This document shows, piece by piece, positions 4,796 through 40,490 of a stretch of 64,000 nucleotides of DNA. Each line of letters begins with the position of its first letter. The first letter of the stretch is position 1. Origin of the DNA: Calditrichia bacterium (lineage in GTDB: Bacteria > Calditrichota > Calditrichia > RBG-13-44-9 > J075). The stretch covers positions 186,001-250,000 of the forward strand of contig JANQQU010000062.1 of NCBI GenBank assembly GCA_028284905.1, in the 5' to 3' direction. Made by a program: the position numbers and the translations under genes. The notes below the pieces were generated by a model, which was not told the origin of the DNA, did not search any database, and saw nothing but the letters and a program-made list of their open reading frames with translations.

Positions 4796-7700
4796 TCAAT
4801 TTCGTTTTTTGAATTCTGAAGGGGAGCAGCCAAACTCTTCCTGGAAGCAGCGGGTAAAATATGACTGACTGTTAAAGCCAACCATGTAGGCGATTTCGGC
4901 AATATTTCCGGCATCTTGCTTAAGCAGGTCGGCCGCTCTCATTAGGCGAAAAGAGCGAATAAATTCGCTGGGCGATTTATCCGCCAGCGCGCGGATTTTT
5001 CGATGTAGCTGTACGCGGCTCATCCCCATCGCATCACCAAGTTTTTCCACGCTAAAATCCTCATTTTCCAAATTTTCTTCGAGGATTTCGTTCATCTTTT
5101 CCAGGAACTGCTGATGCACAGAAGGCACCGAAACCTGACGAGGTTTGAGGAGCATTTCCGTGCTATATTTATTGCGGAGTTGATTGCGAAGTTTGATCAG
5201 GTTGCGCACCCGCACAAGCAGCTCATCGGGATCAAATGGCTTAATCAGATAATCATCCGCACCGGTTTCCAGGCCTTCCATGCGATCTTTTCGCTCCGCC
5301 TTTGCCGTCAGCAGAATAAAAGGGATATGATTGGTCTTATCACTGGCTTTCAAGGCTTTGCCAAGCGCATAACCATCCATTTCCGGCATCATCACATCGC
5401 TGATAATCAAATCCGGCACTTCTGTTTTCGCCTTCTCCAGACCAATTCGCCCATTCTCGGCTTCGATAACTTTATAGGCAGGCAACAAATGCTGACGGAT
5501 GTAATCTCTTAAATCCCTGTTATCTTCAACAACGAGAATTAAATCTTCATCTGAAGTTTTTTCTGATGTTTCTGTGGATAGTTGCTCAGTTGCCTCAACC
5601 GGTTTTTCGGAAATTGCTTCCTGGTAAATTTCTCCGTCTGAAGGCATTGCATCTTTTTCGTCGGCAGTAACAATTTGGTCCGGATGGAGGTGGGCATTGC
5701 CCAATGGCACCCTGATGCTAAACACGGTTTCACTATCGATCTCACTACTCACGGAAATCTTGCCCTGATGCAACTCCACCAATTCTTTCACCAGCGCCAA
5801 CCCAATACCGGTCCCCTCGGTTTCATAAGTATTGCTATCCTGCGCTTGGTAAAAGCGATCAAAAATATACGGTAGTTTATCCTCAGGAATTCCCTTGCCA
5901 GTGTTGCTAACCTCAATGACAACAAATTGCTGCTCGTCTACACTCTCAAGCGTCTCATCATCGACGGTGCTGACGGCGACATTTACCGCGATCGTGCCGG
6001 CATTGTTCGTGAATTTAAAAGCATTCGAGAGTAAGTTGTAAAAAATCTTTTCAAACTTCTCTGTGTCAAAATACAGATTGATTTTACTATAGCCGGACTC
6101 AGCAGTAATCGGTGCCCCGTTAAAAGTAAGCTTGATTTTTTTCTGCTCTCCCATGGAAGCAAAAGAAGCAAAAATGCGCCGCAGGAAACGAACAATATCA
6201 CCTTTCGCCGCCCTTAGTTTCATACCGCCAGCTTCCAGTTTGGCGATATCCAGTAACTGGTTTATCAGCAACAGCAGGCGGGTCGCATTTCGTTGCATCG
6301 CGCTATATTCGTCCTGAGAAGGATGTGTTTCCTTTGATTTGTGGTATTTGTTTAGCAGCCCGAGAATCAGTGTTAAAGGTGTGCGGAATTCATGGGAGAT
6401 ATTGGCAAAAAAACGAGTTTTGACCCGGTCCATTTCAGTCAGTTTCTCTGACTGCTCTTTTAAGCGGTTCCGTTGCGCAACCACTTCGGCGGTTCTTTCT
6501 GCAACTAAATTTTCCAGGTTTTTACGATAATCTTCCAGTTGCCGGACGCGGATTTTCACAATCGCAAAAATTGCCCCACCGATAAGCAGGACATAGATCA
6601 GATAAGCCCACCAACTGCGGTACCAGGGGGGCAGTACCCGAAAAACAAACTGGCTAACTTCGCTTTCCTGACGATGGAGATCGCGCCCGCGAACTTTAAA
6701 GATGTAATCACCTTCCGGTAGATTGGTGTAATCCTTCCGGTTCTCTTTCTGCCAGACAGACCACCCTTTATCGTATCCTTCTAAGAAAAACTGATATTCA
6801 TTTGCTGCAACAACTTCAAATGCCGGCATTGCAAATTCAAAACGGCAGGAGTTGAATTCATACGGCAGTTCTGGTGTCTGAAATATCCCGGACGCGCTGC
6901 CCCCATAAACCAAAGAATCTTCCGGGACAATCCTCACCGAACGAATGAGCGGTGCGTAAACACGGTCATATTGATAAGCAATTTCCGGGTTATAACGCAC
7001 AACACCGTTGTTCATTCCTAGCCAGGTGATATTGTTACGGTGAAAAGCAGTGTGAAAACTACCAATGTTAAGCAGATTGTTGAAAAAATTTCGGTCAACA
7101 GTGTAGTCACCACTGGCGGAAGCGTTCGCCAGCCAGTATACATCATCTTTACCATCAAAAACCTTGGCGATTATCCGGTCATTTGAAAAAGTAAATAAAC
7201 GGGATATCATCACCCTGGGATCGGCGAGTTCTTTGCCTAAACTTTCATTGAGAACCAGCGACTTACTGGCCTCATCGAATGTGCGAACGCCGGTCTCACT
7301 GGCAAAATATATTTCACCGTTTATTTTCGTTAATTGACCGGTCATCAATTTATTGGGATCATCAAACTTTTCCACTTTGGCATTCAGGGGATCTTTACCA
7401 CTCCCTTGAAATGTTACTCGATAAATACCTTCATCCATGGTCCCCAGCCAAAGTCGGCCGTTTTTATCCGCCTCCATATGGCGAATTTCAGCCTCAACAT
7501 CCGGCAAGTTCCCAAGCCGCTCCCAGGCAGTATTTCGATATTGAAACGCTTCCAGACCTGTCTGGGCCCCGGCAAAGAGGATCTCCGGAAAATTTGCGTG
7601 CTGATAAAGCGAGAAATATGTATCCTCGGTATTGTCAATTAAGGTTGCCCGGGTATTGTCCACCCGGTAAAGGCCGACATTTGTGCCGGCTACCAGCCCG

Positions 7701-8863
7701 CGAGAGGTCACCAGCAAATAAAAGGATTGCGCATTTAAACCGGACACCGGATAAAAACGGGGATTTACATGCCATTTTTCCGGATCGGCGCTTCTGTCGT
7801 CATTGTTGGCAGTTAGCGTAGAATAATAAACGCCCTGACTGGTCGTGACGTATAATTTATCATCATATTGTAAGAGATCCTCGACATTCCCTAGCAAGCC
7901 CTCACTTTCGCCGTAAAATGTAAATGGGGAAGGGAAACGCACCTGGGCAAAGCCGCTGTTCATCGCCAGCCAAAGGGTGCCGTCATCGTCGATATAAAGA
8001 CTTTTCACATCCTCGGATATTAGTCCGCTGGATTTGTTTAGTATCTTCACTCTCTTTCCCTGTCGATCCATAATTACCACGCCACCGCTATAAGTGCTAA
8101 AAGCAAATAAATCGCTGGGGAGGGCAACGCCACTGGATAGGCCAAAATGACTTATAAAGGCATCGATTTCATTTGAAAACTTGGATATTTTCCCGTCTCG
8201 TAAAATATGCAGCCCTTTACGACCGCTACAGATGAGGATTTCGTTGGCACTAAAGGGAAGAATTGTATGAATTGGGCTTCCGGCAATCTCCTTGCTTCCG
8301 GGGATAAGATGCAGGGAATCTCCTTCCATTCGCAATAAGCCTGTCCCGCGCTCCTGGATATAGAAAGTTTCCCCAATCAGGTAGCTGAGGAAAAAACGGG
8401 AATCTACGGACCAGTATTTAAAACCGTTACCATCCCAGAAAAAAAGTTCGTCAAATGTTTGAAAATAAACGCCACCTGGTACAGCATGAGTGCGCCAAAT
8501 TTCTCCCATCTCTCGTTTTTCTTCCGGAATTTGATCCAAAAGTGAGACAAACGCCATACGTCCCATAGAATCCGGCGCCAGGTACCCAAAATCATTTGAG
8601 CCGCCGACGTAGATCGTTCCGTCATTACCTTTGGCAAAAGAACGCCCGCGGTTATAATTTTCCGTCTCGATCAAGCGCCATTGGTAGCCATCGTATTCCA
8701 AGATGCCATTGCCATTAGCGGTATAAAGCACGCCACGATCGTCGCGAATGATCTGCCAGTTTTGAAAATGTTGTTTATAGTCTTTCGGGTCGTAATTGAC
8801 GATATAAGGATTGCCGGTAGCTGCCCAGTCTTCATTGGCACTGTTCAAGTCCTGAGCGCTCAT
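4796..8863 (-). CDS. Hybrid two-component sensor/regulator (propeller, His kinase, REC, AraC)
   Basis: From the first in-frame ATG this is 1355 residues with all parts of a one-protein signalling system. They are: an extracytoplasmic beta-propeller (about 30-640), a Y_Y_Y domain ending near 745, one membrane helix near 755-775 and a coiled coil. Then come a HisKA domain with phospho-acceptor His824 in SHEFRTPLT, an HATPase domain (DKLPYIFDRFYQ, GTGIGLALV), a receiver with Asp near 1156 in ISDVMMPEMDG, and an AraC-type HTH at the C terminus (about 1240-1355). It senses a ligand outside the inner membrane and binds DNA itself. The family usually controls neighbouring polysaccharide genes, so the divergent GH5 gene at 9119 is the obvious target. 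The export signal lies upstream in the same frame without a usual start codon; see the entry at 8864. Confidence 0.93.
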   Translation of the reverse strand: MSAQDLNSANEDWAATGNPYIVNYDPKDYKQHFQNWQIIRDDRGVLYTANGNGILEYDGYQWRLIETENYNRGRSFAKGNDGTIYVGGSNDFGYLAPDSMGRMAFVSLLDQIPEEKREMGEIWRTHAVPGGVYFQTFDELFFWDGNGFKYWSVDSRFFLSYLIGETFYIQERGTGLLRMEGDSLHLIPGSKEIAGSPIHTILPFSANEILICSGRKGLHILRDGKISKFSNEIDAFISHFGLSSGVALPSDLFAFSTYSGGVVIMDRQGKRVKILNKSSGLISEDVKSLYIDDDGTLWLAMNSGFAQVRFPSPFTFYGESEGLLGNVEDLLQYDDKLYVTTSQGVYYSTLTANNDDRSADPEKWHVNPRFYPVSGLNAQSFYLLVTSRGLVAGTNVGLYRVDNTRATLIDNTEDTYFSLYQHANFPEILFAGAQTGLEAFQYRNTAWERLGNLPDVEAEIRHMEADKNGRLWLGTMDEGIYRVTFQGSGKDPLNAKVEKFDDPNKLMTGQLTKINGEIYFASETGVRTFDEASKSLVLNESLGKELADPRVMISRLFTFSNDRIIAKVFDGKDDVYWLANASASGDYTVDRNFFNNLLNIGSFHTAFHRNNITWLGMNNGVVRYNPEIAYQYDRVYAPLIRSVRIVPEDSLVYGGSASGIFQTPELPYEFNSCRFEFAMPAFEVVAANEYQFFLEGYDKGWSVWQKENRKDYTNLPEGDYIFKVRGRDLHRQESEVSQFVFRVLPPWYRSWWAYLIYVLLIGGAIFAIVKIRVRQLEDYRKNLENLVAERTAEVVAQRNRLKEQSEKLTEMDRVKTRFFANISHEFRTPLTLILGLLNKYHKSKETHPSQDEYSAMQRNATRLLLLINQLLDIAKLEAGGMKLRAAKGDIVRFLRRIFASFASMGEQKKIKLTFNGAPITAESGYSKINLYFDTEKFEKIFYNLLSNAFKFTNNAGTIAVNVAVSTVDDETLESVDEQQFVVIEVSNTGKGIPEDKLPYIFDRFYQAQDSNTYETEGTGIGLALVKELVELHQGKISVSSEIDSETVFSIRVPLGNAHLHPDQIVTADEKDAMPSDGEIYQEAISEKPVEATEQLSTETSEKTSDEDLILVVEDNRDLRDYIRQHLLPAYKVIEAENGRIGLEKAKTEVPDLIISDVMMPEMDGYALGKALKASDKTNHIPFILLTAKAERKDRMEGLETGADDYLIKPFDPDELLVRVRNLIKLRNQLRNKYSTEMLLKPRQVSVPSVHQQFLEKMNEILEENLENEDFSVEKLGDAMGMSRVQLHRKIRALADKSPSEFIRSFRLMRAADLLKQDAGNIAEIAYMVGFNSQSYFTRCFQEEFGCSPSEFKKRN

Positions 8864-10651: not shown

Positions 10652-13600
10652 ATGAGAAAATATACGCTACTTGTTCTTCTTTTAACCTTCATTTCAATAG
10701 CTGACGTCTTTGCTCAACAAGCAACTGTTCGTTTTCAGAAAGTTAGTTTAGACGAGGGTCTGTCCCAGAGTACTGTGCTCTGTATTTATCAAAGCAGTAA
10801 GGGGTTTATGTGGTTTGGCACCCAGGAGGGATTGAACAAATATGATGGATATGACTTTACGGTATATAGACATGATCCGGTAAATACGAATAGCTTGAGT
10901 AACGATTTTATCAGAGCGATCGTGGAAGACAAGAATGGCGATCTCTGGATTGGTACCGACAATCGAGGGCTAAACAGATTTGACCCTGCAACTGAAACAT
11001 TTAACAGATTTCTTTACCACCCCGATTCAGCAAACGGCTTAAATGACAATGCGATTTTAAAAATGTATATAGATGATTCAGGAATTATCTGGATCGGCAC
11101 CTATGAAGGTGGGTTGAACAAACTTACTTTTCATCCCAGGTCAGGAAAACCGCAATTCGAACATTTTGTTCATGATTCCCTTGCCTCGGCAAGTTTGAGT
11201 AGCAATCACATCACCGCACTGCATCGGGATCGGAATGGTGCATTATGGGTTGGCACATTTGATGGTGGGTTGAATAAGCTGGTAATTGGTGAAGATACTG
11301 CCGATTTCAACACTAGCAACTCCCTTGAAAGCATTGAACATTACAACCATAATCCGGAAATCTCTAATAGCCTGGGACATAATCACATCATGGCAATACA
11401 TGAGGACCAGGCGGGACGATTGTGGATCGCCACCCGTGGAAGTGGTATCAGCCTCTTCAATCCGGAAGGAAACAATTTTCATCAATTCCAACATGTCGCG
11501 GACGATCCCGCCAGCCTTGGCAATAACATTGTTCGGGCGATTGTCGAAGACAATACAGGCACTCTCTGGTTTGCCACTTATGGCGGGGGATTAAGCAAAT
11601 TGAGTGGCTGGGATTCCACTACGGTTGTACCCCGACCAATATTTACCAATTTTCGCAACGATCCATACTCGCCGGGCAGTCTCAGCGACGACTTCCTTTA
11701 TTCCGCATTCATTGACCATAGTAATGTCCTCTGGATTGGCACTGAAAGTGCCGGGCTCAACAAGTTAACAGCAGAAAGCGGCAGATTTACCCATTATCGT
11801 CATCATCCCTATCGATCGAAGAGTTTAAGCAGCAATTCAATCTGGTCGGTATGGGAGGATCGCTCCGGGAAAGTTTGGGTTGGCACAAATGACGGCGGCT
11901 TAAACCAATTGGACGAAAGCAACCAAAGCTTTCGTCATTACAAGCATGACCCGGCTAACCGAAACAGCATCAGCCATAATTCAGTAGTTAGCATTCATGA
12001 AGACACGCGTCTGGATGGGGTGTTGTGGCTCGGTACTATGGAAGGCGGGCTGAACCGGCTGGATGTATCTTCCGATAATTTTACCCGCTATTCTTTCAGA
12101 GAAGGCAGCACCGCCGGCCCGGCCAGCAGTGGCATTCTCGCCCTTCATCAAGATAAAAACGATGTGCTTTGGCTGGGCACTTTTGACGGGGGACTGAACA
12201 GATTCAACCCGTATGCCCCCGGAGCGCCAAACTTTACTCATTATAAGATGTCTTCCGAAGATCCAAACAGCATCCGGGATAATTTTGTTTGGGAAATCTA
12301 TGAAGATCGCGCCGGCAATCTCTGGCTCGGTACTTTTGATGGAGGCATCAACAAGCTAGCTCACAAAGATGATCCCGACTCAGCTGTGTTTACCTACTAT
12401 ATGCACGACACTGAAAATCCGAACAGCATGGCAGACAATAAAGTGATGACGATTCATCAGGACAGCGAACAAGACAACATTCTCTGGATTGGCACCAAGG
12501 CCGGCTTGAATCGCTTTGATATTACCAGCGAAAACTTCACTTTATACACCGAGAACGATGGCTTACCCAACAATCTGATTTACGGTATTCTTCAGGACGA
12601 GATGGGTTGCCTCTGGCTGAGTACGAACCGGGGATTATCGAAATTCGATCCGGCAACAGAAACGTTTAAAAACTATGACGCCGGTGATGGGTTACAAAGC
12701 AATGAATTCAATTCCTGTGCATATCATCGCGGACATAGCGGCCGCATGTATTTTGGGGGAGAAAACGGATTTAATGCTTTCTTACCGGGGCAAATTGTCG
12801 ACAACCCCTATGCGCCACCGATGGTAATCACTGCATTTCGGACATTCGACGGCATCATTCGTCAGGATTTCACCCATTCCGATGACATTGCAGTATCTTA
12901 CAAAGAAAAATATTTGACATTTGAATATGCCGCTTTGCATTATGCCAACCCGGAGAAAAACCGCTATGCTTTTATGCTTGAAGGCTTCGATGAAGATTGG
13001 ATATTCGCGGAAAATGCCCGATCAGCCAACTACACCAATCTTTCTTCCGGAAATTATACTTTCAAGATTAAAGGCGCGAACAATGATGGTGTCTGGAACG
13101 AAGACGGGGTAGCGGTAGATTTTACAATTTCAACGCCGCCCTGGCGCACCTGGTGGGCATATATGCTCTATTTGATAGTTGCCCTGGCAATTCTCTACGG
13201 GCTTTGGCGAAATGAAGTCAATCGTTTACGGCTAACCACTCAACTACGCCTGGAACAGGCCGAGGCGGAAAAATTGAAGGAGTTGGATCATTTGAAATCC
13301 AGCTTCTTTGCGAACATCTCCCACGAGTTTCGCACACCACTGACCTTAATTCTTGGCCCGATAGAGAATGCAATATCGACGGTTAAGAACAAGGAAGTTA
13401 AGCAGCAGCTGGGGACAGCATTCCAGAATGGGCGGCGGCTGTTGCGCCTGATTAATCAAATCCTTGATCTTTCCCGGCTGGATGCAGACATGATGACTTT
13501 GAAGGCCAGCCATGGCGACATCATTCCTTTTATTAAAGGCATATTTTACACCTTTGAGCATACCGCAGGGGAGAAGGGTATTCATCTGCACTTTGAAAGC

Positions 13601-14896
13601 AAAAGCGAGCAAGTCGAGGGCTATTTTGACACAGAGAAGCTGGAGCCGGTATTCTATAATCTTATCGCTAACGCCATCAAATTCACCCCGGCATCCTCTG
13701 CCGGAAAAATCTCCTGCAATGTTCAGCAGATTGCCAACTCGACGCTACCGGGTAACCAGGTGGCGGTTCAAATTCGCATTCAGGATTCCGGTATTGGGAT
13801 TCCTGCAGAGCAGTTGCCACATGTCTTTGACCGGTTTTTTCACGAAAATCGCCCCGCAGCCTCGGACCAGAAAGGAACAGGCATTGGGTTAGCCCTCGTT
13901 AAAGAAATTGTTTCCCTGCATCATGGTGAAATTTTCGTAAAGAGCACTGTTGGTGAAGGAACAGCTTTCATTGTTGAATTACCCCTCGGTAATGAACATC
14001 TGAATGATTCTGAAATCATTGATGAACCTTTGATTACACCTGCACTTGAAGCGCCTGAGTTGATGTCAGCAAACATTTCACCTTCACAGGATCACAGTGA
14101 GGGAGCTGCAGAGCGTCTTGATTCTGCGCCGGAAATATTGATAGTGGAAGACAACGCAGATTTACGCGCATATATCCGACAACATCTTGATAGCGATTAC
14201 AATGTTTCCGAAGCTGTTGATGGCAAGGCAGCTCTGGAGATGGCCATAGAAGCTATTCCGGATTTGATCGTCAGCGACGTAATGATGCCCAAGATGGACG
14301 GATTTGAACTTTGCGAAACCCTGAAGAATGATCAACGGACCAGCCATATTCCGGTTATTCTGCTGACAGCCAGGGCAGGGGAGGAGAGCAAAATTACTGG
14401 GCTGGGAACCGGTGCTGATGATTATTTAACCAAGCCGTTCAGCTCTGCAGAATTGCAGGCCCGTATAAAAAACCTGATTGTACAACGACAAAAGCTGAAA
14501 GAACGATTTACCCGCGCCGTAGTACTGAAGCCCAGCGAAATCGCCATCACTTCCGCCGACGAGAATTTTCTGAACAGAGTGAAAGCGGCTGTGGAACGCA
14601 ACATCAGCGATGAACATTTTTCAGTAGATGATCTTAGCAGTGAGGTTGGCATGAGTCGCGTACAGCTGCACCGCAAGCTGAAAGCGCTGACCAATCAATC
14701 GAGCGGTCAATTCATTCTTTCCCTGCGCTTGCAACGAGCGACAGACCTAATTCGGAGCAATGCTGGCACGGTATCCGAGATAGCATATATGGTTGGATTC
14801 AATACGCCTAATTACTTCGCAAAATGCTTTCGAGCGCAACTCGGTTGTTCACCATCGGAATACAAGCTGCAGCAAGCAGGAAATGGCGAATCTTGA
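10652..14896 (+). CDS. Hybrid two-component sensor/regulator with Reg_prop propellers
   Basis: 1414 residues. A clear signal peptide (1-21, ending VFAQQ) leads into about a dozen Reg_prop repeats built on variations of LWIGTFDGGLNKL (about 30-690), which form two propellers. A Y_Y_Y domain follows (to about 825), then one membrane helix (834-852) and HisKA with His891 in SHEFRTPLT. The HATPase (GTGIGLALV), a receiver with Asp1209 in SDVMMPKMDG and an AraC HTH (about 1300-1410) complete the chain. This is the classic periplasmic-sensor hybrid that binds oligosaccharides from polysaccharides and activates nearby genes. It shares the whole architecture with the minus-strand sensor at 4796, but the two propellers are not close copies. 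A rho-independent terminator follows directly. Confidence 0.95.
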   Translation: MRKYTLLVLLLTFISIADVFAQQATVRFQKVSLDEGLSQSTVLCIYQSSKGFMWFGTQEGLNKYDGYDFTVYRHDPVNTNSLSNDFIRAIVEDKNGDLWIGTDNRGLNRFDPATETFNRFLYHPDSANGLNDNAILKMYIDDSGIIWIGTYEGGLNKLTFHPRSGKPQFEHFVHDSLASASLSSNHITALHRDRNGALWVGTFDGGLNKLVIGEDTADFNTSNSLESIEHYNHNPEISNSLGHNHIMAIHEDQAGRLWIATRGSGISLFNPEGNNFHQFQHVADDPASLGNNIVRAIVEDNTGTLWFATYGGGLSKLSGWDSTTVVPRPIFTNFRNDPYSPGSLSDDFLYSAFIDHSNVLWIGTESAGLNKLTAESGRFTHYRHHPYRSKSLSSNSIWSVWEDRSGKVWVGTNDGGLNQLDESNQSFRHYKHDPANRNSISHNSVVSIHEDTRLDGVLWLGTMEGGLNRLDVSSDNFTRYSFREGSTAGPASSGILALHQDKNDVLWLGTFDGGLNRFNPYAPGAPNFTHYKMSSEDPNSIRDNFVWEIYEDRAGNLWLGTFDGGINKLAHKDDPDSAVFTYYMHDTENPNSMADNKVMTIHQDSEQDNILWIGTKAGLNRFDITSENFTLYTENDGLPNNLIYGILQDEMGCLWLSTNRGLSKFDPATETFKNYDAGDGLQSNEFNSCAYHRGHSGRMYFGGENGFNAFLPGQIVDNPYAPPMVITAFRTFDGIIRQDFTHSDDIAVSYKEKYLTFEYAALHYANPEKNRYAFMLEGFDEDWIFAENARSANYTNLSSGNYTFKIKGANNDGVWNEDGVAVDFTISTPPWRTWWAYMLYLIVALAILYGLWRNEVNRLRLTTQLRLEQAEAEKLKELDHLKSSFFANISHEFRTPLTLILGPIENAISTVKNKEVKQQLGTAFQNGRRLLRLINQILDLSRLDADMMTLKASHGDIIPFIKGIFYTFEHTAGEKGIHLHFESKSEQVEGYFDTEKLEPVFYNLIANAIKFTPASSAGKISCNVQQIANSTLPGNQVAVQIRIQDSGIGIPAEQLPHVFDRFFHENRPAASDQKGTGIGLALVKEIVSLHHGEIFVKSTVGEGTAFIVELPLGNEHLNDSEIIDEPLITPALEAPELMSANISPSQDHSEGAAERLDSAPEILIVEDNADLRAYIRQHLDSDYNVSEAVDGKAALEMAIEAIPDLIVSDVMMPKMDGFELCETLKNDQRTSHIPVILLTARAGEESKITGLGTGADDYLTKPFSSAELQARIKNLIVQRQKLKERFTRAVVLKPSEIAITSADENFLNRVKAAVERNISDEHFSVDDLSSEVGMSRVQLHRKLKALTNQSSGQFILSLRLQRATDLIRSNAGTVSEIAYMVGFNTPNYFAKCFRAQLGCSPSEYKLQQAGNGES

Positions 14897-14908
14897 CCTT
14901 TTCCTAAA

Positions 14909-14939
14909 AAAATAGCCCGTTACATCGACGGGCTATTTT
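14909..14939. terminator. Rho-independent terminator after the hybrid sensor
   Basis: AAAATAGCCCGT pairs perfectly with ACGGGCTATTTT around a seven-base loop. A-rich sequence on one side and T-rich on the other let it work for the plus-strand sensor gene and for the convergent gene at 14972. Confidence 0.85.
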
Positions 14940-14971
14940 CAAAATCGCAAGTATTCTGAAGACGAAAAAGA

Positions 14972-17368
14972 TTATGACTTTTTCGCAAAGAATGTTTTCA
15001 GAAGCACATCGGTACGGGTGCGCCAGCTGGTCCAGCCAAATCCTTCATTTACTTCCCGGGATTCTACGGAATAGCCTTTTTCCTTCAACAGCTTGACAAA
15101 GTTGCGGTTATTAGCACCCCAATCATAATCTCCACTGACACTGCGGTAATCAAACTTACCCCAATCCATATAAAAACGAATCGGCAGGGTTTCCGACTGG
15201 CTGATTTTGTCTCGCAGTTCTTGACCTTCCTGGCTATGGAGATGAGAAGATTGCCCGGCAACCAGGCCAAACACAGCAGGATAGTTAACCGCAGTATAAA
15301 TAGCACTATAGCCGCCTTCGTCTCCTCCCATAACCAAACGGGATTGCGGTGCAGTTACAGTGCGATAAGCGTTGTCAATATGCGGCACAAGTTCTTTCGT
15401 GATCATCTCCGAATATTGTGCCTTAGCATCACGGGCATATTCCTGAAAACGATTCCGGGTGGGATAAATAAAAACGACAACGACGGGGTCGATTTCGCCA
15501 GCAGCGATGAGATTATCCAACACAGTGGGCATGTTACCAAACTCGAGCGCCATACGACCATAATTGACATAGGCGGTTGGATAACGCTTGCCGCTATTCT
15601 CATAACCGGCTGGTAAATAGACTTGCAAGGTGCGCTCATCGGAAAGGGTTTTGCTGGCAAAAGTTTCCTCGACCAGCTTGCCACTGGGAACGCCATCTTT
15701 CTTCAGCCAGCTATCGGAGCCTTTCCAGTCCGGCATGGCAAATTCAGATTCTTCGCCATTAAAGCTATTCACTTTTTTCGGATTTAGCGGATCAGTAATT
15801 CGTTCCTCATAATTGCGGACAATCTGGTAGGCGAGATGGGCATCCGAGGGCAGCTCTTGCGTAAAGTAATAGAGGTCGGTGCCGTCGACCCGGAACATTG
15901 TTTCTTCCACACTCATATCGAACATATCGCCGCCGATAACAATATCTTCTACTGCACCATGATAAACAAAGTGCACCAGATTATCACCTTCGATAACCGG
16001 GAAGGATTTCTGTGCTGCCATAAACTCCTTCACCAATGCTTCTTTATTGCTGGCTTTTTCGACCTTGCGAACAAATTTGGCAAAATCGGAATTCGGCGCC
16101 GCCGGCTTTCTTTCCACTTTAGCGATGCTGATTGCGTTGGCAGTATTAACAACTTGCACACTGGCAATTTCGTCCAGACTACGGGCATAAATACGGCCAT
16201 TTGCAAAGCTGGGAGGGGTCCAGGCAATGCCTTCAAACATTTTCAAGTTTGCCTTCTCCTGATAGCCTTCCGGTGTTGCCGGCGCAATATGCAAACTACC
16301 CCGCTTGGTGAGAACGACCAAATTCCCGTCCACCAAAATAATAAATCCATCGCCTGGTTCCCGGGATTTCCAAACGGTTTCACCATTCTCGGCATCGACA
16401 CAGGTGATAAACTGACCGCTGTAACCATACAAATAGCCGTCATGAAATACCGGGACATTAAACGAGCGCTTCAAATGCCGGCTTTGCCAGAGTTCCTTCG
16501 CCACAAAACCGCTTTCCGCAAAGTCCACCTGAACTAGCTGGGCTGCGCTATTGGTTGTTAGCAAAATCTTATTTTTACCAATCTGAAGCGGGTTAATGCT
16601 GCCGGCGCGGCCGAGATGCTGAAATTCCCAAAGCTTACTGCCGTCTTCCAGATTGACACCCAGCAGAGAATTGTTCCCCGCGAAAAGGACATGGGTATCG
16701 CCCCCAATATTCGTCAATATTGGCGATTGATAATTCACCGCATCATCACCGTTTTGCCAGCGCAATTTTCCAGTGGATTTGTCATAGCCTGAGATCGACT
16801 TCCCTTCAGTGCCACCGGTTTCCACGACGAGTACATCTCCATAAACAACCGGCGCAGTAGTAAACCCGTGAAAAGGCTCCGTGGCATGATCATCTTCCAC
16901 AATATGGCGGGACCAGGCTTCGCTGCCATCCTTTGCATTTAAGGCGATCAACTTTCCCTTTCTTTCCAGGGCAAAAACCAGATCACCATCAATCAATGGG
17001 GTAGAGGATGGCCCGTTATGCGATCCGCCTTTGCCCATGTAAGCCGGCCCGGTGCGGTATCGCCATAATTCGTTGCCATTTTCTGCATCAAATGCAATCA
17101 CGAGATCAGATTCACCATCTGTAAACATTGTAATGGCTCTGCCATCCGCAACAGAGACGCTGGAATACCCCTGCCCCAGGGCTTTCTTCCAAACCGTTTG
17201 CAGTCCTTGTCCCTCACTCAGCGCCAGAGTACCGCTGTTACTCGTGCCGTTTTGGGTGGCACCGCGCCATTGCGGCCAATCAGTTTTTTTGTCAGAACCT
17301 TCGTTTGCCCAAAGTGCAGAGATTAAACCTGTAACTAGCAGGGCAAACAAAAAGTAAGAAAAGCGCAT
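14972..17368 (-). CDS. PQQ-like propeller protein fused to a catalytically altered esterase domain
   Basis: 798 residues with signal peptide (1-22). Residues about 28-420 form a PQQ-like/BamB-type beta-propeller (WPQWRGATQNGTS, then repeated ENGNELWRYRTG-like blades). Residues about 460-550 resemble the E-set domain in front of enterochelin-esterase-like enzymes (VDGTDLYYFTQELP, ITDPLNPKKV). Residues about 565-798 are an alpha/beta-hydrolase esterase D domain. The nucleophile elbow, normally GxSxG, reads VMGGDEGGYSA with Asp683 in place of Ser. The usual histidine of the C-terminal GGHDW-like motif is replaced by Phe777 (EGFGWTSWR). It is therefore probably not an active Ser esterase but a secreted binding or scaffold protein. 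It is alone between two terminator or promoter regions. Substrate unknown. Confidence 0.85.
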   Translation of the reverse strand: MRFSYFLFALLVTGLISALWANEGSDKKTDWPQWRGATQNGTSNSGTLALSEGQGLQTVWKKALGQGYSSVSVADGRAITMFTDGESDLVIAFDAENGNELWRYRTGPAYMGKGGSHNGPSSTPLIDGDLVFALERKGKLIALNAKDGSEAWSRHIVEDDHATEPFHGFTTAPVVYGDVLVVETGGTEGKSISGYDKSTGKLRWQNGDDAVNYQSPILTNIGGDTHVLFAGNNSLLGVNLEDGSKLWEFQHLGRAGSINPLQIGKNKILLTTNSAAQLVQVDFAESGFVAKELWQSRHLKRSFNVPVFHDGYLYGYSGQFITCVDAENGETVWKSREPGDGFIILVDGNLVVLTKRGSLHIAPATPEGYQEKANLKMFEGIAWTPPSFANGRIYARSLDEIASVQVVNTANAISIAKVERKPAAPNSDFAKFVRKVEKASNKEALVKEFMAAQKSFPVIEGDNLVHFVYHGAVEDIVIGGDMFDMSVEETMFRVDGTDLYYFTQELPSDAHLAYQIVRNYEERITDPLNPKKVNSFNGEESEFAMPDWKGSDSWLKKDGVPSGKLVEETFASKTLSDERTLQVYLPAGYENSGKRYPTAYVNYGRMALEFGNMPTVLDNLIAAGEIDPVVVVFIYPTRNRFQEYARDAKAQYSEMITKELVPHIDNAYRTVTAPQSRLVMGGDEGGYSAIYTAVNYPAVFGLVAGQSSHLHSQEGQELRDKISQSETLPIRFYMDWGKFDYRSVSGDYDWGANNRNFVKLLKEKGYSVESREVNEGFGWTSWRTRTDVLLKTFFAKKS

Positions 17369-17889
17369 AAATCCTCCTGATATAACATATTAGTGAAAAT
17401 AGATAACGGATCGCATCGAGGTGAACCAAATTCAATTGATTGGTGTTGATGATCGCTCAATCATTAGGGTGATAATCTTTAATCATGCATCCCTTTACGA
17501 CGGATCATAGTAAATGTTTGCTTTCCGGGGACAAAATCAAAAAAAAGTGATCAGATGCTATATTGAGAATGCAACTGAGCAACTAGCTCAGCGATATTTC
17601 GGTACATCAACAACGACTTCTCAAAATAATCCGGCATTACCAGCCCCTTTTTTGTTTTCATCATTCATTTAGATATATTGGACAGATTTCGCAGAACTCG
17701 CTTATTATAGTGGAAACGACTTTCCGGATAAGTAAAAAATATTACAGTTTCTTGAATTCATAAGATTTTACCATGGTATAATCTCATATTTCTGGCTAAC
17801 TTGAACTTGCTTGAATCGCTGAAAAACATTGTTTATGCCGCTGTTTATTGATGATTTCATTGACCCGGGATAAACGGCAGGGGATCAAA
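17369..17889. other. Divergent intergenic region, 520 bases
   Basis: It separates the propeller-esterase gene (minus) from the binding-protein operon (plus). No open frame worth calling. It contains a dyad CTGAGC-AACTA-GCTCAG at 17575-17591 and a good TATAAT at 17777-17782, described separately. The AT-rich remainder shows no RNA gene that I recognise. The length suggests that both flanking units have complex control. Confidence 0.5.
17752..17782 (+). promoter_or_regulatory. Candidate sigma-70 type promoter of the sensing operon
   Basis: TTGAAT (17752-17757) and a consensus TATAAT (17777-17782) are separated by 19 bases, about 100 bases upstream of the binding-protein start. The -10 is perfect, the spacing a little long. 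A housekeeping promoter would keep the sensor genes expressed at a basal level while their target uses sigma-54. Confidence 0.45.
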
Positions 17890-19215
17890 TTGGATATTTC
17901 GTTTCGCAACAGTTGGAAATTTTACTTTTTTGGAGGCTTGCTGGCTTTTGTTATTCTTGGCCTGATCATCTACCTGTTTGATATTTACAGTATAAAATCC
18001 CAACAGCGTAATATCCAGAGAGTTTATTACGTAGACAACATCTCCGAAGCGCACCAGCACCTAATTGATCTCTTCAACAAAAAGCATGAAGGTAAAATTG
18101 AAGTCGTTCCGGTTAACTTACCGTTCGACCAATTTAGCACCAATGAGCGCAAAGTTTTACTGGCACGGTCCCTTCGTGGGAGAAGTGAAGAAATAGACAT
18201 TTTTGCCGTAGATCTGATCTGGGTGCCGCGCTTTGCGCGCTGGGCAGAACCCCTGGACCTTTATTTCCCTTCTTCCCGGCGCAACAGCATCATTCCCGAG
18301 GCCCTGGAGTCCTGCTTTCACGAAGATCATTTTGTATCCGTGCCGATCTATATTGATATCGGCTTAATGTATTATCGCAAGGATTTGTTGCGCCACTTCA
18401 GCGATCCGGAAGCTTTCGAAAAACGCCTGGGAGAGTCGATTACCTGGGAAGAGTTGATTGAGCTTCGATTGGCGCATCCAGAATACCAGAATCCGTTTTA
18501 TATGTTTGCCGCGCAAAATTTTGAAGGGCTAGTTTGTAGCTATATAGAAACGTTGCATAGCATGAATGCTTCTATCTTTCAAGGAGACAGCGTTCAGTTG
18601 AACACACCTGCTTCCCGGAAAACGCTCCAGCTGCTTGTTGATATGGCCGGCTACCTAAACTTTGCCCCCAGAGACATTGTTCAGTTTGATGAAGTTGGCA
18701 TATATCTTTACGGCTTGCAAAATGATGCAGTGATGTTCCGCGGTTGGCCGGGACTGATACGGCAAGGTGTAACGGCAGATATTCCGGAAACGGTATATCA
18801 AAACTTACGGCGCGCCCCTTTACCGCATTTTGCCGGCACGAAGAAGAATGCAGTATATGGAGGTTGGAACCTGATGGTATCGAAATACTCAACAAAGAAA
18901 AGTGCTGCCATAAAATTTATACAGTTTGTTTTACAGCCGGAAAACCAGAAGCGAATGTTCGAACTAGGGGGATTTATTCCTGTAAATCAACAAGTTTACC
19001 GGGATGAAAGATTTATCAGTCAATATGCGGAGTTGCCGTTTTATCGTAAGCTGTTGGATAACGGCACCCATCGTCCTTACGTAGTTAACTACACCCAAAT
19101 TTCGGATATACTTTCATACTACATTCAAATGGCAATTAAGCAGGAAATTTCTGTCGAAAATGCTTTAGCCATGGCTACAAAGGACATAAACAACAGAAAG
19201 CCAATGGTGAAATAA
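17890..19215 (+). CDS. Membrane-anchored ABC-type solute-binding protein used as sensor
   Basis: About 441 residues. The fold is a family 1 extracellular solute-binding protein of the maltose/trehalose type: IDIFAVDLIWVPRFARW, PIYIDIGLMYYRKDLL, YGGWNLMVSKYS and the C-terminal QPENQKRMFELGGFIPVN all match. Instead of a cleaved or lipoprotein leader it has one uncleaved helix (FYFFGGLLAFVILGLIIYLF), so it stays fixed to the inner membrane facing the periplasm. I prefer the TTG at 17890, preceded by AGGGG; an ATG at 17851 in the same frame is possible but has no visible ribosome site. No ABC permease or ATPase is in the window. The next gene, three bases away, is a histidine kinase, so this protein most likely reports sugar binding to it. 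The ligand is inferred to be a cello-oligosaccharide from the downstream cellulases. Confidence 0.85.
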   Translation: MDISFRNSWKFYFFGGLLAFVILGLIIYLFDIYSIKSQQRNIQRVYYVDNISEAHQHLIDLFNKKHEGKIEVVPVNLPFDQFSTNERKVLLARSLRGRSEEIDIFAVDLIWVPRFARWAEPLDLYFPSSRRNSIIPEALESCFHEDHFVSVPIYIDIGLMYYRKDLLRHFSDPEAFEKRLGESITWEELIELRLAHPEYQNPFYMFAAQNFEGLVCSYIETLHSMNASIFQGDSVQLNTPASRKTLQLLVDMAGYLNFAPRDIVQFDEVGIYLYGLQNDAVMFRGWPGLIRQGVTADIPETVYQNLRRAPLPHFAGTKKNAVYGGWNLMVSKYSTKKSAAIKFIQFVLQPENQKRMFELGGFIPVNQQVYRDERFISQYAELPFYRKLLDNGTHRPYVVNYTQISDILSYYIQMAIKQEISVENALAMATKDINNRKPMVK

Positions 19216-19218
19216 ACT

Positions 19219-20712
19219 ATGAGTAACAACAACGATTCACAGCAGTATTTGAAAGAGAAATTCCGGAAATACAACTTCCAAATCAAACACCTTTTTCTCG
19301 TTTTCGGAATTATCTGTTTTTTTCTGATACTGGTTACATTCATCCAAAAACTCTCTCTACAAACCTTACTCCTCAACACACAACGATGGTATCAACAAGA
19401 CTTCGCAGAGCGCCTGGCGAATCTAACCGCGACTTCATTGGAATTATTGCTGGAAACCGCCTCCCAGGAAGAACTTAATAACGACCTCGCTGCCCAGGAA
19501 ATGATTCAGGCTTTCAACATTCTATTTAGCCAGCAAGTGCTACAACACCAGGTTGATGAGGTGGCAATTATCGTCACCCACAAAGGCAATAGTTATATCA
19601 TTGATAATGGGATGGTGCTATATCAGTATTTCTTTCGGGACGGCAATAATCTGCCACCGAACAGTGATGATTATCAGAGGGTATTGGCGCTGTACGACTC
19701 TATCCATCCCTATATGCAGGCAGCTGAGGAAGTTCAGAGTATTCCCACAGACAACAACAGCTTTCGGGTGTTTGTGCCTTTTGTGCCGAAAGGGGAGTTC
19801 CTCGGTGCGGTTTACGTTCGCAATACGCCGGACTTTAGCTTCATCACCGAAGAAGTTTTAGCCAATTACAATGAAACGGCATTATTCTTTTCTGCATTAA
19901 TCCTCTTTGGGCTTCTTGCCGTATTTTATGTCTCATCTTATTTGATGAACGAAAGGGATGCTGCCAGGGAATCTCTGTTTACCCAGGAACAGGATGCCTT
20001 GAAAAAGTCAATAGATCAGCAAAAAGAACACTTGTTTACCAAGCGGATTTATCACACCCATCATAAGGCTGAAAAAGTGATGGGCTTTATCAAGGAAGAT
20101 TTAAGAAATCTTTCTGCAGAGAACATTGAGGAGAGCAAGTATCGGGTAACTAAATATGCCAACTTTATGTCCCGTGTTATCTACGACATGAAGTGGTATG
20201 AGCCACCGTTGCATGCTATCCGGAATACAATTTTTCAAACAGATTTAAACGCCCTGATTCGCTTTATTGTGAAAAACATCTTTTTACGAATTGCTTCCGA
20301 TGCAGAATCACTTAAATTTAAGCTTGATTTAGATGAAACATTTCCCCCGGTTAGAGTGAATGAATTTATCATTTGGGAAATCCTTGAGCCGCTAATTCAA
20401 AACAGCATCGACCACGGCGGTGAGGCAGACAACACCATTCTGATAAAAACATATCAAGATTCCGATGGTGAGAAGCGTTATATTACAATCAGCGACACCG
20501 GGAAAGGTGTTCCGACGAATTTACTGGAAAAGAATGAAGATGGGGTGCAATTACTTTTCCTGGAGAATATCTCCACAAAAAATATTGGCAGGAACAGCGG
20601 ATACGGTTGCTATTTAGCATATGAGATATCGAAACGCTGCGGCTGGGAAATTAAGGCCGAGAATCTTGAGCAAGGTGGTTGCCGCACCACACTGACGTTA
20701 AAAACACTGTAA
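19219..20712 (+). CDS. Sensor histidine kinase of the binding-protein system
   Basis: 497 residues: a membrane helix near 16-42, a periplasmic part (about 45-215, with segments resembling a sensor domain of the Cache/PAS-like type, not firmly assigned) and a second helix near 221-242. A coiled region and a kinase core follow. The HATPase is recognisable from EPLIQNSIDHGG (N-box Asn395), SDTGKGVP (Asp426) and NSGYGCYLAYEI (G2). The phospho-acceptor region KRIYHTHHKAEK (His279, 281, 282) lacks the usual H-E-x-x-x-P context. The gene lies between the solute-binding protein and the sigma-54 activator with short gaps (3 and 18 bases), so the three form one operon. It presumably phosphorylates Asp62 of the next protein. 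Confidence 0.85.
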   Translation: MSNNNDSQQYLKEKFRKYNFQIKHLFLVFGIICFFLILVTFIQKLSLQTLLLNTQRWYQQDFAERLANLTATSLELLLETASQEELNNDLAAQEMIQAFNILFSQQVLQHQVDEVAIIVTHKGNSYIIDNGMVLYQYFFRDGNNLPPNSDDYQRVLALYDSIHPYMQAAEEVQSIPTDNNSFRVFVPFVPKGEFLGAVYVRNTPDFSFITEEVLANYNETALFFSALILFGLLAVFYVSSYLMNERDAARESLFTQEQDALKKSIDQQKEHLFTKRIYHTHHKAEKVMGFIKEDLRNLSAENIEESKYRVTKYANFMSRVIYDMKWYEPPLHAIRNTIFQTDLNALIRFIVKNIFLRIASDAESLKFKLDLDETFPPVRVNEFIIWEILEPLIQNSIDHGGEADNTILIKTYQDSDGEKRYITISDTGKGVPTNLLEKNEDGVQLLFLENISTKNIGRNSGYGCYLAYEISKRCGWEIKAENLEQGGCRTTLTLKTL

Positions 20713-20730
20713 TCGAAGGACTCCTAGAAA

Positions 20731-22176
20731 ATGCTTAAAGGCAGAAGAATCAATGTATTACTGATTGAAGACGAAGCGTATGATGTCCGTCGCATCAAAA
20801 ATACCATACGCCTATCAGAGACAGATATTTATATCCATGATGTTGTCTCTAATGGACAAAGTGCAGTGGAACTCGTCGCAGACAGCAACAATCAATATGA
20901 TGTTGTCATTATGGATTATCAAATTGCCGGCAGCTTATCGGGGGAGGACTTGATTCAGCGTTTAAAAAAGCTGGATCCGCTCCTGCAAATTATCGTTATC
21001 ACAAAAATGACCCTGAATATTACTGATTTTGATTTCGCCAACCGCTTACTTACTGCCGGGGCTATGTGGTACTGCACCAAATATCCCGGAGACATCGAAG
21101 ATTATATCTATCAACCAACGGATTTTATACTCAGTATTTACAATGCCTATGAGAAGCGCTCCCTGGAAAAAGCCCGGCGCCGTTCGGACAAGAAACTGGA
21201 TCGTAACATTGAAGAGATTGTCTTTAGCAAAAGAATCGTTGGAGAGTCCGCAACAATCGGATATTTGCGCCAGCAGATCAAAAATTGTGCGGAAACAGAA
21301 ACAACGGTATTAGTCCGCGGAGATTCTGGCACCGGAAAAGAACTGGTAGCTGCAAACATCCATTACAACAGTGCCCGGCGCTATGAAAAGTTTGTCCCGA
21401 TCAACTGCGGCAGCCTGCCTGCGGATTTGATTGAGAGTGAATTGTTTGGTTTCGAGAAAGGCGCTTTTACCGGTGCCGCCACTCAAAAACCCGGTCTATT
21501 CGAAGTGGCGAACAAAGGAACGATCTTCCTTGATGAAGTCGCAGAATTACCGCTTTCTTCCCAGGTGAAATTACTGAGAGTGTTACAGGAAGGGGAGTTA
21601 GATAAAATCGGCCGGACCCAACAGGTAAAGGTCGATGTTCGGGTCATTGCTGCAACAAATAAAAGTCTGGAAGATGCCGTGCGGGATGGCAGATTTCGAA
21701 AGGACCTTTATTATCGCTTAAATGTTGTCTTTATCCAATTGCCATCATTAAAAGAACGCAAAACCGACATTCCCCTGCTCATCAAGCACTTCCTGGAAAA
21801 ATATAGTAATGAGATGAGTTTGCCGGCACCAGAAGTTGCCGAAGCGGGTATGTCTCTGCTCGTTAATCATGGATGGCCCGGCAATGTTCGTGAATTGCAA
21901 AATGTTGTACAACGCCTGATATTTGCCCGGGAAAAAGAGATTGATGCGCCGCTCGTAAAAAACTCACTGGGAATGTTGCTGGACTCTCCGACAGGCAATA
22001 TATACGCTTGGGATCCGGATAATATTTTACCACTGCGGGAGATTGAGCGTCAATTTCGGGAGCAGTATTTTCAGTTTGTGCGGCAACATACCCAATCAGA
22101 TGCAGAAGCAGCCCGCTTGCTCGGACTGGCACCGTCCAACTATCATCGCATGTGTAAAGAATTAGGGCTGAAATAA
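20731..22176 (+). CDS. NtrC-family sigma-54-dependent response regulator
   Basis: 481 residues with three parts. The receiver (about 4-125) has the acidic pocket IEDE and phospho-acceptor Asp62 in VIMDYQ. The AAA+ sigma-54 activator domain (about 165-400) has Walker A GDSGTGKE (197-204), an intact GAFTGA loop (244-249), which contacts sigma-54, and Walker B GTIFLDEV. A Fis-type helix-turn-helix ends the chain (DAEAARLLGLAPSNYHRM). Every residue group needed for an active bacterial enhancer-binding protein is present. It is the last gene of the sensing operon. A near-consensus -24/-12 promoter and a dyad lie just downstream in front of two cellulase genes, which makes those genes its likely targets. 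Confidence 0.93.
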   Translation: MLKGRRINVLLIEDEAYDVRRIKNTIRLSETDIYIHDVVSNGQSAVELVADSNNQYDVVIMDYQIAGSLSGEDLIQRLKKLDPLLQIIVITKMTLNITDFDFANRLLTAGAMWYCTKYPGDIEDYIYQPTDFILSIYNAYEKRSLEKARRRSDKKLDRNIEEIVFSKRIVGESATIGYLRQQIKNCAETETTVLVRGDSGTGKELVAANIHYNSARRYEKFVPINCGSLPADLIESELFGFEKGAFTGAATQKPGLFEVANKGTIFLDEVAELPLSSQVKLLRVLQEGELDKIGRTQQVKVDVRVIAATNKSLEDAVRDGRFRKDLYYRLNVVFIQLPSLKERKTDIPLLIKHFLEKYSNEMSLPAPEVAEAGMSLLVNHGWPGNVRELQNVVQRLIFAREKEIDAPLVKNSLGMLLDSPTGNIYAWDPDNILPLREIERQFREQYFQFVRQHTQSDAEAARLLGLAPSNYHRMCKELGLK

Positions 22177-30423: not shown

Positions 30424-31893
30424 ATGAAATACGGGTACAGTTTTCTAATTATTACAGCGCTTTTCTTTTGCCTGACCAGTTGCCAGAACAGTAACGACAG
30501 CCAGGAAGAAAAAATTGTGATTGCCGATATTGGCGAACGTACGGTTGATTGGCAGCAGCTTTGGCTTAGCTATCATCTGGAGCCAAAGTGGGGGAGAGGG
30601 CTGACAACTGAAGAGTCCTTCAACAATCAACTGGAATACCTTGTTGAGCAAAAATTGTTTGCCCAGGCTGCAGTCAGTGAAGGCGCCCTGGAAGATCCGC
30701 GCATTGCCGGTCAGGTTGCATTTATTCAGGAAAAAGAAGCGATCAAAGCGCTATACCGGAAACATGTAGAATCCAAAGTTGAAATTCAGGAAGCAGCTTA
30801 CGAGCAAGCTTATCATAACAGCAAGACCAAAGTTCAGTTCCAGTACATCAAAACAACAGACTCTTTAAAAGCTGCGGATTACCTGGTCGCTTTTGGCACG
30901 AAAGCGTTTGAGCAGATTATTGTTTCTCCAGCAGATGAAAAGGCAGTTTCTCCAATGTTTACTTTTGGTGATATGGCCGAGCCCCTGGAAGCAGTGGTTT
31001 TTCAAATGCAGCTGGATGAAATCCGTGGCCCGATCAAGGTGGATGATCAATTTATGGTCGTGAAGCTCATCAATGGGGAACGCGATGTTTTTCGCTCCAA
31101 AATGGAATTGGCGGAGCAAAAGAGCAAGCTGAAGAAAGTGCTCTTTGAACGCCGGGCTAAAGTAATATCCGACCGTTATGTCTCCCAGATTTTGCAAGGC
31201 AAAAAAGTAACCATTCACCGCGAAGCCTTCATTCAGCTTGCCAAGACATTTAATCAGGTCGTTCAGCAAAAGCAATCGGATAACTCCTTACCACTTTACC
31301 TGGACAATAATGAGATCAAGGAAACCCGTTCAACATTGAAAGATTTCCAGGATGATCTACTGATCACTTTTACCGGTGGCAGCTTGACCATTCGTGAGTT
31401 CCTCGAGGATTTATTCAATATGCCCACCGGCTTGCGTCCACAAGTCAATATGGCACCGGCACTCAAAAAAGCGCTTTATCAGGCGGTTAGAAATCACTAT
31501 CTGGCAGAAGCAGCAGCTCGGGAAGGATTAGGCGAAACCGCAGAAGTACAATCTGCAGTTGAAAGCCAAACGGACGCGATACTGGCGCGTTTCCGGATGC
31601 AGCAAATGCGGAACAACTTAACGGTCAGCGAAACAGAGATTGAAGAATTTCAGGGCAGCGAAGCTTATGCCAGGTTAAACAATCTTTCCAAAGGGAAACT
31701 GGACAATCGCGCGGTTAAGGATGTTTTACTGGATTTCAAATTCAAAAATGCCAGAATTGAACAGTCCGACAGTTTACGCAATGTTTACACCGTTAGTATC
31801 CAGCAAGAAAATCTTAGCAAGAAAATCGACAAACCGGATGAGCTTATCGCACATCAACCGGTGAGAATGTATTATCGGGAAAATTTCCATTAA
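30424..31893 (+). CDS. Parvulin/SurA-like folding lipoprotein
   Basis: 489 residues. A lipoprotein leader ends at LTSC with Cys20 as the lipidated residue. The following helical part (EEKIVIADIGERTVDWQQLW, then NQLEYLVEQKLFAQAA) matches the chaperone region of SurA/PrsA-type peptidyl-prolyl isomerases. A parvulin-like segment spans about 120-225 but is divergent, and a second helical chaperone-like stretch follows (TITFTGGSLTIREFLED-like start near 315). It probably helps exported proteins fold at the periplasmic membrane, with the large surface proteins next door as obvious clients. Isomerase activity itself is doubtful because the parvulin part is poorly conserved. Confidence 0.72.
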   Translation: MKYGYSFLIITALFFCLTSCQNSNDSQEEKIVIADIGERTVDWQQLWLSYHLEPKWGRGLTTEESFNNQLEYLVEQKLFAQAAVSEGALEDPRIAGQVAFIQEKEAIKALYRKHVESKVEIQEAAYEQAYHNSKTKVQFQYIKTTDSLKAADYLVAFGTKAFEQIIVSPADEKAVSPMFTFGDMAEPLEAVVFQMQLDEIRGPIKVDDQFMVVKLINGERDVFRSKMELAEQKSKLKKVLFERRAKVISDRYVSQILQGKKVTIHREAFIQLAKTFNQVVQQKQSDNSLPLYLDNNEIKETRSTLKDFQDDLLITFTGGSLTIREFLEDLFNMPTGLRPQVNMAPALKKALYQAVRNHYLAEAAAREGLGETAEVQSAVESQTDAILARFRMQQMRNNLTVSETEIEEFQGSEAYARLNNLSKGKLDNRAVKDVLLDFKFKNARIEQSDSLRNVYTVSIQQENLSKKIDKPDELIAHQPVRMYYRENFH

Positions 31894-40200: not shown

Positions 40201-40490
40201 ATCCGTACATCGTTGCTGCTAGCTGGGAAAAACGGACGCTTTTTGGCGCTGGTCGTGGCGATCGAAAAATCGACTTTATCCATCTGCCGCAAAAATGCAC
40301 AATTCGTATTTTTACCATGTCCGGCAGAAAGGTAAAAACATTAGAAGTTGATAATCCAATTACTGATGGCGCGACATCCTGGGATCTCGTGTCGGACGAT
40401 GGCATTGAGATTGCCTACGGGGTCTACATCTATCATATCGATGCCCCCGGTATCGGAAAATCCATCGGTAAATTCGCGGTAATTAAATAA
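37278..40490 (+). CDS. Large surface protein with calcium-binding-like Asp repeats
   Basis: 1070 residues with signal peptide (1-22, ending LPAQEP). It has no recognised enzyme domain. Three Asp-rich segments look like thrombospondin-3/EF-hand-type calcium loops: DDDRDGDVDN near 191, DDDLDGLIDERRDDGIDNDGD near 353-373 and DRNGNGQWDD near 378. An FN3-like part sits near 530-660 (KVFLQWDAI). The C terminus (about 970-1070) is a FlgD/T9SS-like sandwich (VVPNPYIVAASWEK, GVYIYHID), a variant of the sorting domain without the NYPNPFNP motif. GGAGG lies six bases before the ATG. Its stop overlaps the PorV gene start, so the two are coupled. Probably a surface partner of the TonB receptor; function unknown. 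Confidence 0.7.
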   Translation: MNRFIYIWLIFLIASLVQTLPAQEPAAVIEAYRQEPHGDNRFRRDGIMDGNLMRTIYVNNGEVGQWPFQPSGEWPKGTGHSYLDGVCLLVGAKVPVTIGDLDTFITPMSASYREHMDVDPVTGLPWGWEPVPGYVFEGDGVQGSSQIPAISNDASSWPALWPSAIFTFLNVSQTEWINEAEINGTPGVDDDRDGDVDNFTYWYGFFGRGIKNADIESFFVIDDAADQEWTRGPYFYHPLESDMERGGLGLRVEARGFQWSQVLAEDNIFWLYDIVNLSDTTYDETVFGFLTDVGIGGTNDSGDDNASFDLLLDIAYGFDTDLIGIDDVGTWGPTGVLGYAYLESPGNPFNNIDDDLDGLIDERRDDGIDNDGDWTPYTDRNGNGQWDDTEPLNDDLGQDGVGPFDRQYNGPDEGEADGIPTLGEPNFDRTDVEESDQIGLNSMSIYRLVDGGGGDGWPKHDEGLWRRMSFQSFDTTLQNANIQMLFASGPFELRQGYRERFSMALLNGSDLEDLVFNKITVQEIYNADYNFSKPPLKPFVTAVASDGKVFLQWDAIAEESRDPFLRDSLGNPRKDFEGYLVYRSTEPEWNDIKVITDSRGEARYWKPIAQFDLVNDISGPDPIGINGAHFWRGSNTGLRRSYIDEDVVNGQTYYYAISAYDQGDPDRGLETGLQPTETTKIIREDFRGNILFTDINTAVVTPNAPAAGYVPPEIIGDLESVNGLGSGSMEVEVLDPALIQDNATYRVEFTSVNDFPEHRTTTYSVYQDMGDTLLPILPDQDATEVGPENPTLPVDGFVMAITNPTEVEIIPEETGWLTGISNINMVVRQPPPQFGSFTLRWPADYKITFFEDIVDSSFEASGGLPVNFKIQNITEDRQVDFWFWDADGSGALSVGDSLSILEPLEGTNFPRFTHNVWFAQPFGQIGRLPEPGDEFLITTTKPFITGDYFEFSTKSAGIDLNSALNELDNVKVVPNPYIVAASWEKRTLFGAGRGDRKIDFIHLPQKCTIRIFTMSGRKVKTLEVDNPITDGATSWDLVSDDGIEIAYGVYIYHIDAPGIGKSIGKFAVIK

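Follow-up and report, generated by a model that had tools for sequence, protein, structure and literature searches.

The closest described structures to the protein considered here are those of the CBM48-CE1 feruloyl and acetyl-xylan esterases, which couple an E-set domain to a CE1 esterase domain. The D. mossii enzymes of this type retain a Ser-His-Asp/Glu triad, which in DmCE1B sits in a groove between the CBM48 and CE1 domains (PMC8040265). The CBM48 domains of two D. mossii CE1 enzymes showed no affinity for any of the glycans tested (PMC8040265). An E-set domain and an esterase fold are also found together in the enterochelin esterases Fes and IroD, while propellers matching PQQ_2 are known from BamB and other PQQ-like propeller proteins.

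In a stretch of 64,000 nucleotides from a Calditrichia bacterium (the window), one reverse-strand gene with an ATG start (14972..17368) combines modules of all these kinds in a protein of 798 aa. A probable Sec signal peptide, read from the sequence (residues 1-21, MRFSYFLFALLVTGLISALWA; 17306..17368), is followed by a BamB/PQQ-like beta-propeller (residues about 29-408; 16145..17284), a CBM48/Fes-N-like E-set domain (residues about 455-548; 15725..16006) and a CE1/esterase-D domain (residues about 560-795; 14984..15691), all of these and the codons given below being on the reverse strand. Pfam recognises PQQ_2 (5.5e-32) and Esterase (PF00756, 5.2e-20, above the gathering score) as well as, weakly, Enterochelin_N. 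The AlphaFold2 model, built from a 57-row alignment, has a mean pLDDT of 91.7 and a pTM of 0.88, and the only segment below 50 comprises residues 1-27. Its best PDB matches by Foldseek are CBM48-CE1 feruloyl esterases, BamB and Fes; the alignments to 8bf3, 6rzn and 7b5v extend over about 360 columns and span both the E-set and the CE1 domain, which thus form a CBM48-CE1 unit. The fusion of propeller, E-set and esterase proposed in the first-pass annotation is therefore seen by Pfam and Foldseek alike. Export is predicted from an N-terminal hydrophobic stretch, which is present in 64 of the 68 fused proteins whose N-terminus can be read, and the 798-aa protein is probably exported as well. Its sole Cys is Cys323 and its signal peptide has no lipobox, so that the lipoprotein anchor of BamB is missing.

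Two of the three triad residues have disappeared from the CE1 domain. Residue 683, at the place of the nucleophilic Ser, is Asp within the motif GGDEGG (codon 15320..15322), and residue 777, at the place of the catalytic His, is Phe within NEGFGW (codon 15038..15040). In a phmmer search against the PDB, the nucleophile elbow GLSMGG of ferulic acid esterases aligns with GGDEGG. The same correspondence is obtained with an intact paralogue from the same genome that has no propeller (L010), whose GSSAGG falls on GGDEGG and whose EGHSYGFWR falls on EGFGWTSWR. Of the triad, the acid alone is left: Asp740 (15149..15151) occupies a position that is D or E in intact relatives and in 49 of 57 fused proteins. 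Tyr603 (15560..15562) replaces the Asp of the HDG loop, which is invariant among intact relatives. The fold residues Gly681, Ser707, Trp779 and Trp782 persist, and membership of the CE1 fold and sequence family is evident from both PF00756 and Foldseek. An esterase D domain with Asp for Ser and Phe for His, fold motifs retained, is what had been claimed for this gene, and the alignments to PDB homologues and to the paralogue bear it out. Misalignment could in principle have hidden a different, intact triad elsewhere in the domain, but this is barely credible. The alignment is unambiguous on both GxSxGG and EGH.W..W and shows no other conserved Ser-His pair; the domain conserves no His, and Ser707, its one conserved Ser, is conserved in intact relatives too. 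At the level of sequence, the status of the domain as a dead enzyme is well supported, and we call it a pseudo-esterase below.

The loss extends well beyond this gene. The genome to which the window belongs (8.55 Mb) encodes three proteins of the full propeller, E-set and pseudo-esterase architecture, and related genera (G002, G003) contribute four more. Among these seven, the nucleophile position is occupied by D, D, G, E, E, L and F, and the His position by F, F, S, G, S, I and A. Within the window's phylum, where 40 genomes were searched, the fused form is confined to a single family, where three genera have it. Two further fused members, G311 and G121, both devoid of Ser and His, came from two other phyla in a spread of 385 genomes; searches of these two phyla at E <= 1e-60 yielded matches, including a few unfused ones, in 7 of 343 and 19 of 347 genomes, and additional fused members were found in the class of G922. 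Genomes with multiple fused copies are frequent in the two other phyla, and the divergent copies in one genome can number five or more. Three copies stand in tandem in G1050 (L118:998-8675), about 80% identical where compared and none with a Ser-His pair. When 57 fused members were scanned with Pfam, PQQ_2 was found in all, Esterase in 55 and a significant Enterochelin_N match in 16.

After removal of duplicates, Ser and His occur together in none of 65 fused proteins versus 54 of 55 testable non-fused homologues. With later members included, the pair is absent from all 77 distinct fused proteins, one of which ends at a contig edge, leaving its His position uncovered, and lacks Ser. Single survivors do occur, namely Ser without His in four fused proteins and His without Ser in three. 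A profile of intact esterases, applied to 25 genomes carrying the fused form, brought up no fused protein with an intact triad among the new fused hits that were followed up. L187, which looked like an unfused exception, is a distant, lone protein resembling esterases; it has Ala in the nucleophile position and lacks an E-set. Of the other doubtful cases, L104 is a contig-edge fragment, L057 was masked, and L190, which had been misaligned, retains GKH. When named genomes were scanned with the single sequence, the sole match was a distantly related propeller from a Planctomycetaceae MAG.

The first-pass annotation had pointed out that Ser and His in homologues of the same architecture would mean a local mutation. 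None has both, and a local mutation, chance or a sequencing error is ruled out by the paralogues and homologues. Conservation of the replacing residues, which had been put forward as a check, did not hold up: Asp683 is kept only in a sub-clade, in seven of its eight members, and Phe777 is shared there only by the nearest homologue. An Asp/Phe pair as a new active site of the whole family is excluded, both columns being variable. That at least 77 relatives in three phyla have lost the Ser-His pair and kept the domain points to an unrecognised family of esterase-derived proteins whose chemistry would no longer be that of an esterase. Judged by its sequences, this is a multi-phylum family and not one odd protein, something invisible from a single window. 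A literature search found no paper describing a propeller-fused CE1 pseudo-esterase architecture.

In a tree of the E-set plus esterase region, a single branch with SH-aLRT 100 separates the fused proteins from the rest, and a mixture-model tree that included outgroup esterases gave the fused clade once more. The first outgroup tree placed a very long outgroup row beside the long fused row L128; when three outgroup rows were removed, the fused clade was whole. By parsimony, the simplest history is that the loss took place on the fused stem, since the GxSxGG elbow is retained in outgroups and unfused homologues alike. The association between fusion and loss is strong, yet it counts as one phylogenetic event since the fused proteins form one clade.

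Ser683, His777 and Asp603 of the HDG loop do not vary among intact relatives and have been lost from the fused proteins, while the four fold residues named above, Asp526 and others are kept in both groups, and Trp736, His466, Asp475 and Asp749 are conserved mainly in fused proteins. Within the domain, position 777 lies at the 93rd percentile of column entropy and position 683 at the 66th. Such freedom of the catalytic positions is what one would expect of a decaying relic, an esterase half carried along as neutral baggage on its way to loss. This is nevertheless very improbable: long open frames span both halves in fused proteins of three phyla, and the dN/dS of the pseudo-esterase is as low as that of the propeller. 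For the pair L042/L075, the values are 0.094 for the propeller, 0.104 for the E-set region and 0.090 for the pseudo-esterase, and the pseudo-esterase ranges from 0.09 to 0.30 in other pairs with measurable dS. Among the pairs behind this estimate L042/L075 alone is unsaturated; the few others are moderately diverged. In these close pairs the domain is thus under purifying selection. Loss of catalytic residues across homologues and purifying selection on the domain, the two marks of a pseudoenzyme family, are both present.

Variation of the old active-site columns across most of the family also lends weight to a structural scaffold, in which the pseudo-esterase would be kept only because it packs on the propeller and E-set or, as BamB does within the BAM complex, on a partner protein, and would hold no small ligand. 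A conserved ligand pocket would forbid that variation, the conserved positions are mostly fold residues, and the propeller is BamB-like. We nonetheless consider a pure scaffold rather unlikely, because one sub-clade retains a specific set of residues at the old site and the divergent copies within single genomes suggest several specificities.

The sub-clade in question has eight members, among them the 798-aa protein, and spans all three phyla, the window's included. All eight keep Glu684 and the motif Glu643-Tyr644-x-Arg646, which reads Glu643-Tyr644-Ala-Arg646 in the window (15431..15442); seven have Asp683, the eighth His, and six have Tyr603. Positions 603, 643, 644, 646, 683 and 684 are variable in the remaining fused family. 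As relatedness inflates simple association tests, we put weight on the persistence of the pattern at 27-59% identity to the 798-aa protein. Co-conservation of the motif with Asp683-Glu684 (codons 15317-15322) at the former active site suggests that part of the family may have rebuilt the pocket, and judging from the fold these residues may touch one another. Formally, Asp at the nucleophile elbow together with Phe for His is the arrangement of the engineered HaloTag dehalogenase, although this is an analogy only. It is conceivable, if unlikely, that the rebuilt site of the sub-clade (Asp683, Glu684, Arg646 and usually Tyr603, with no His) binds a specific ligand or covalently traps an electrophile.

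A step further, the site formed by Asp683, Glu684, Arg646 and Tyr603 might have been rebuilt for a reaction other than Ser-dependent hydrolysis, or the propeller might itself be catalytic. The occurrence of the residue set in seven of eight sub-clade members from three phyla, with only His683 in the eighth departing from it, would agree with a different chemistry. We hold this to be distinctly unlikely, however, since the set is not seen outside the sub-clade, no His in the pseudo-esterase reaches 80% conservation, and the propellers lack the adjacent Cys of quinoprotein dehydrogenases and score far under the cut-off of those models. The adjacent Cys-Cys pair that forms the PQQ-site disulfide was found in none of 68 family propellers, and a PQQ-dependent quinoprotein dehydrogenase is ruled out on these grounds.

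The window is a polysaccharide-degradation island with GH5 and GH9 cellulases bearing secretion tails, CBM6/CBM9 modules, a symporter and a TonB-type receptor. Between 9119 and 45328 it encodes GH5, GH5-CBM6, GH9 and GDSL-TPR proteins, an SSS symporter, a CBM9 protein, a TonB-plug receptor, a PorV-like protein and CotH, four of the products carrying a Por_Secre_tail; for proteins of 1070 aa (37278-40490) and 489 aa (30424-31893), Pfam gives nothing at 1e-5. Hybrid two-component regulators with Reg_prop propellers are encoded at two places, 4796-8863 and 10652-14896, the second directly adjoining the fused gene. Two of the three fused copies in this genome adjoin such a regulator (10652-17368 in the window; L135:3040-9626). 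No neighbour or operon partner is conserved in 20 loci besides the window, so that a carbohydrate role is suggested by context, not established. No RNA family was found at the locus, and promoter matches were only at chance level. At 17848-22176, three consecutive genes encode a solute-binding protein with a hydrophobic segment at its N-terminus, a protein resembling histidine kinases, and a sigma-54 response regulator; together they look like a three-gene sensor, the binding protein feeding the kinase.

Taken as a whole, the data somewhat favour a family of exported pseudoenzymes that extends over several phyla. A CBM48-CE1 esterase, feruloyl/acetyl-xylan-esterase-like or Fes-like, would have been joined once to a BamB/PQQ-like propeller; the catalytic Ser and His and the HDG-loop Asp would have been lost on the fused stem, and purifying selection would then have maintained the esterase fold as a non-hydrolytic module. 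Displayed by the propeller, either within the periplasm or on the cell surface, this module would most likely use the cleft where the E-set and CE1 domains meet to hold either a protein partner or a ligand, be it a glycan or some other molecule that bears an ester. The 798-aa protein itself is probably an exported pseudoenzyme with a ligand- or glycan-binding module, and the secreted pseudo-esterase of enzyme ancestry imagined at the outset is supported to that extent. Glycan binding by the fused family is not assured, however, given that the D. mossii CBM48 domains bound none of the glycans tested (PMC8040265). A Pfam match would label propeller-fused CE1 proteins as esterases, although the whole fused family appears to be catalytically dead, and esterase counts for genomes of these phyla would be inflated accordingly. 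The family also offers a clean bacterial case in which loss of catalysis goes together with a single domain fusion and selection maintains the fold, and its 77 sequences are a set for testing an alternative role of the esterase fold.

How does this architecture compare with known systems? With the CBM48-CE1 esterases wtsFae1A/B (6rzo/6rzn), DmCE1B (7b5v) and Bacint_01039 (6ne9), the 798-aa protein shares the E-set and CE1 unit at 19-23% identity. These structures have no propeller, whereas here a propeller stands in front and Ser and His are gone. Fes/IroD, among the best Foldseek and NCBIfam matches, are similar in their Enterochelin_N E-set and esterase fold, but they are active enzymes without a propeller, and in NCBIfam the 798-aa protein scores 77 where the cut-off is 222. 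In propeller fold and PQQ_2 match it resembles BamB and PQQ-like propeller proteins, and the window's genome encodes many propeller-only paralogues; unlike BamB, it reaches only 71.9 bits with TIGR03300 (equivalog cut-off 285), lacks a lipobox and is fused to a pseudo-esterase. The neuroligins and cholinesterase-like adhesion proteins are animal members of the cholinesterase subfamily with an unrelated architecture, but in them too an alpha/beta-hydrolase fold that has no esterase function is kept, serving for interactions outside the cell (PMC5943944).
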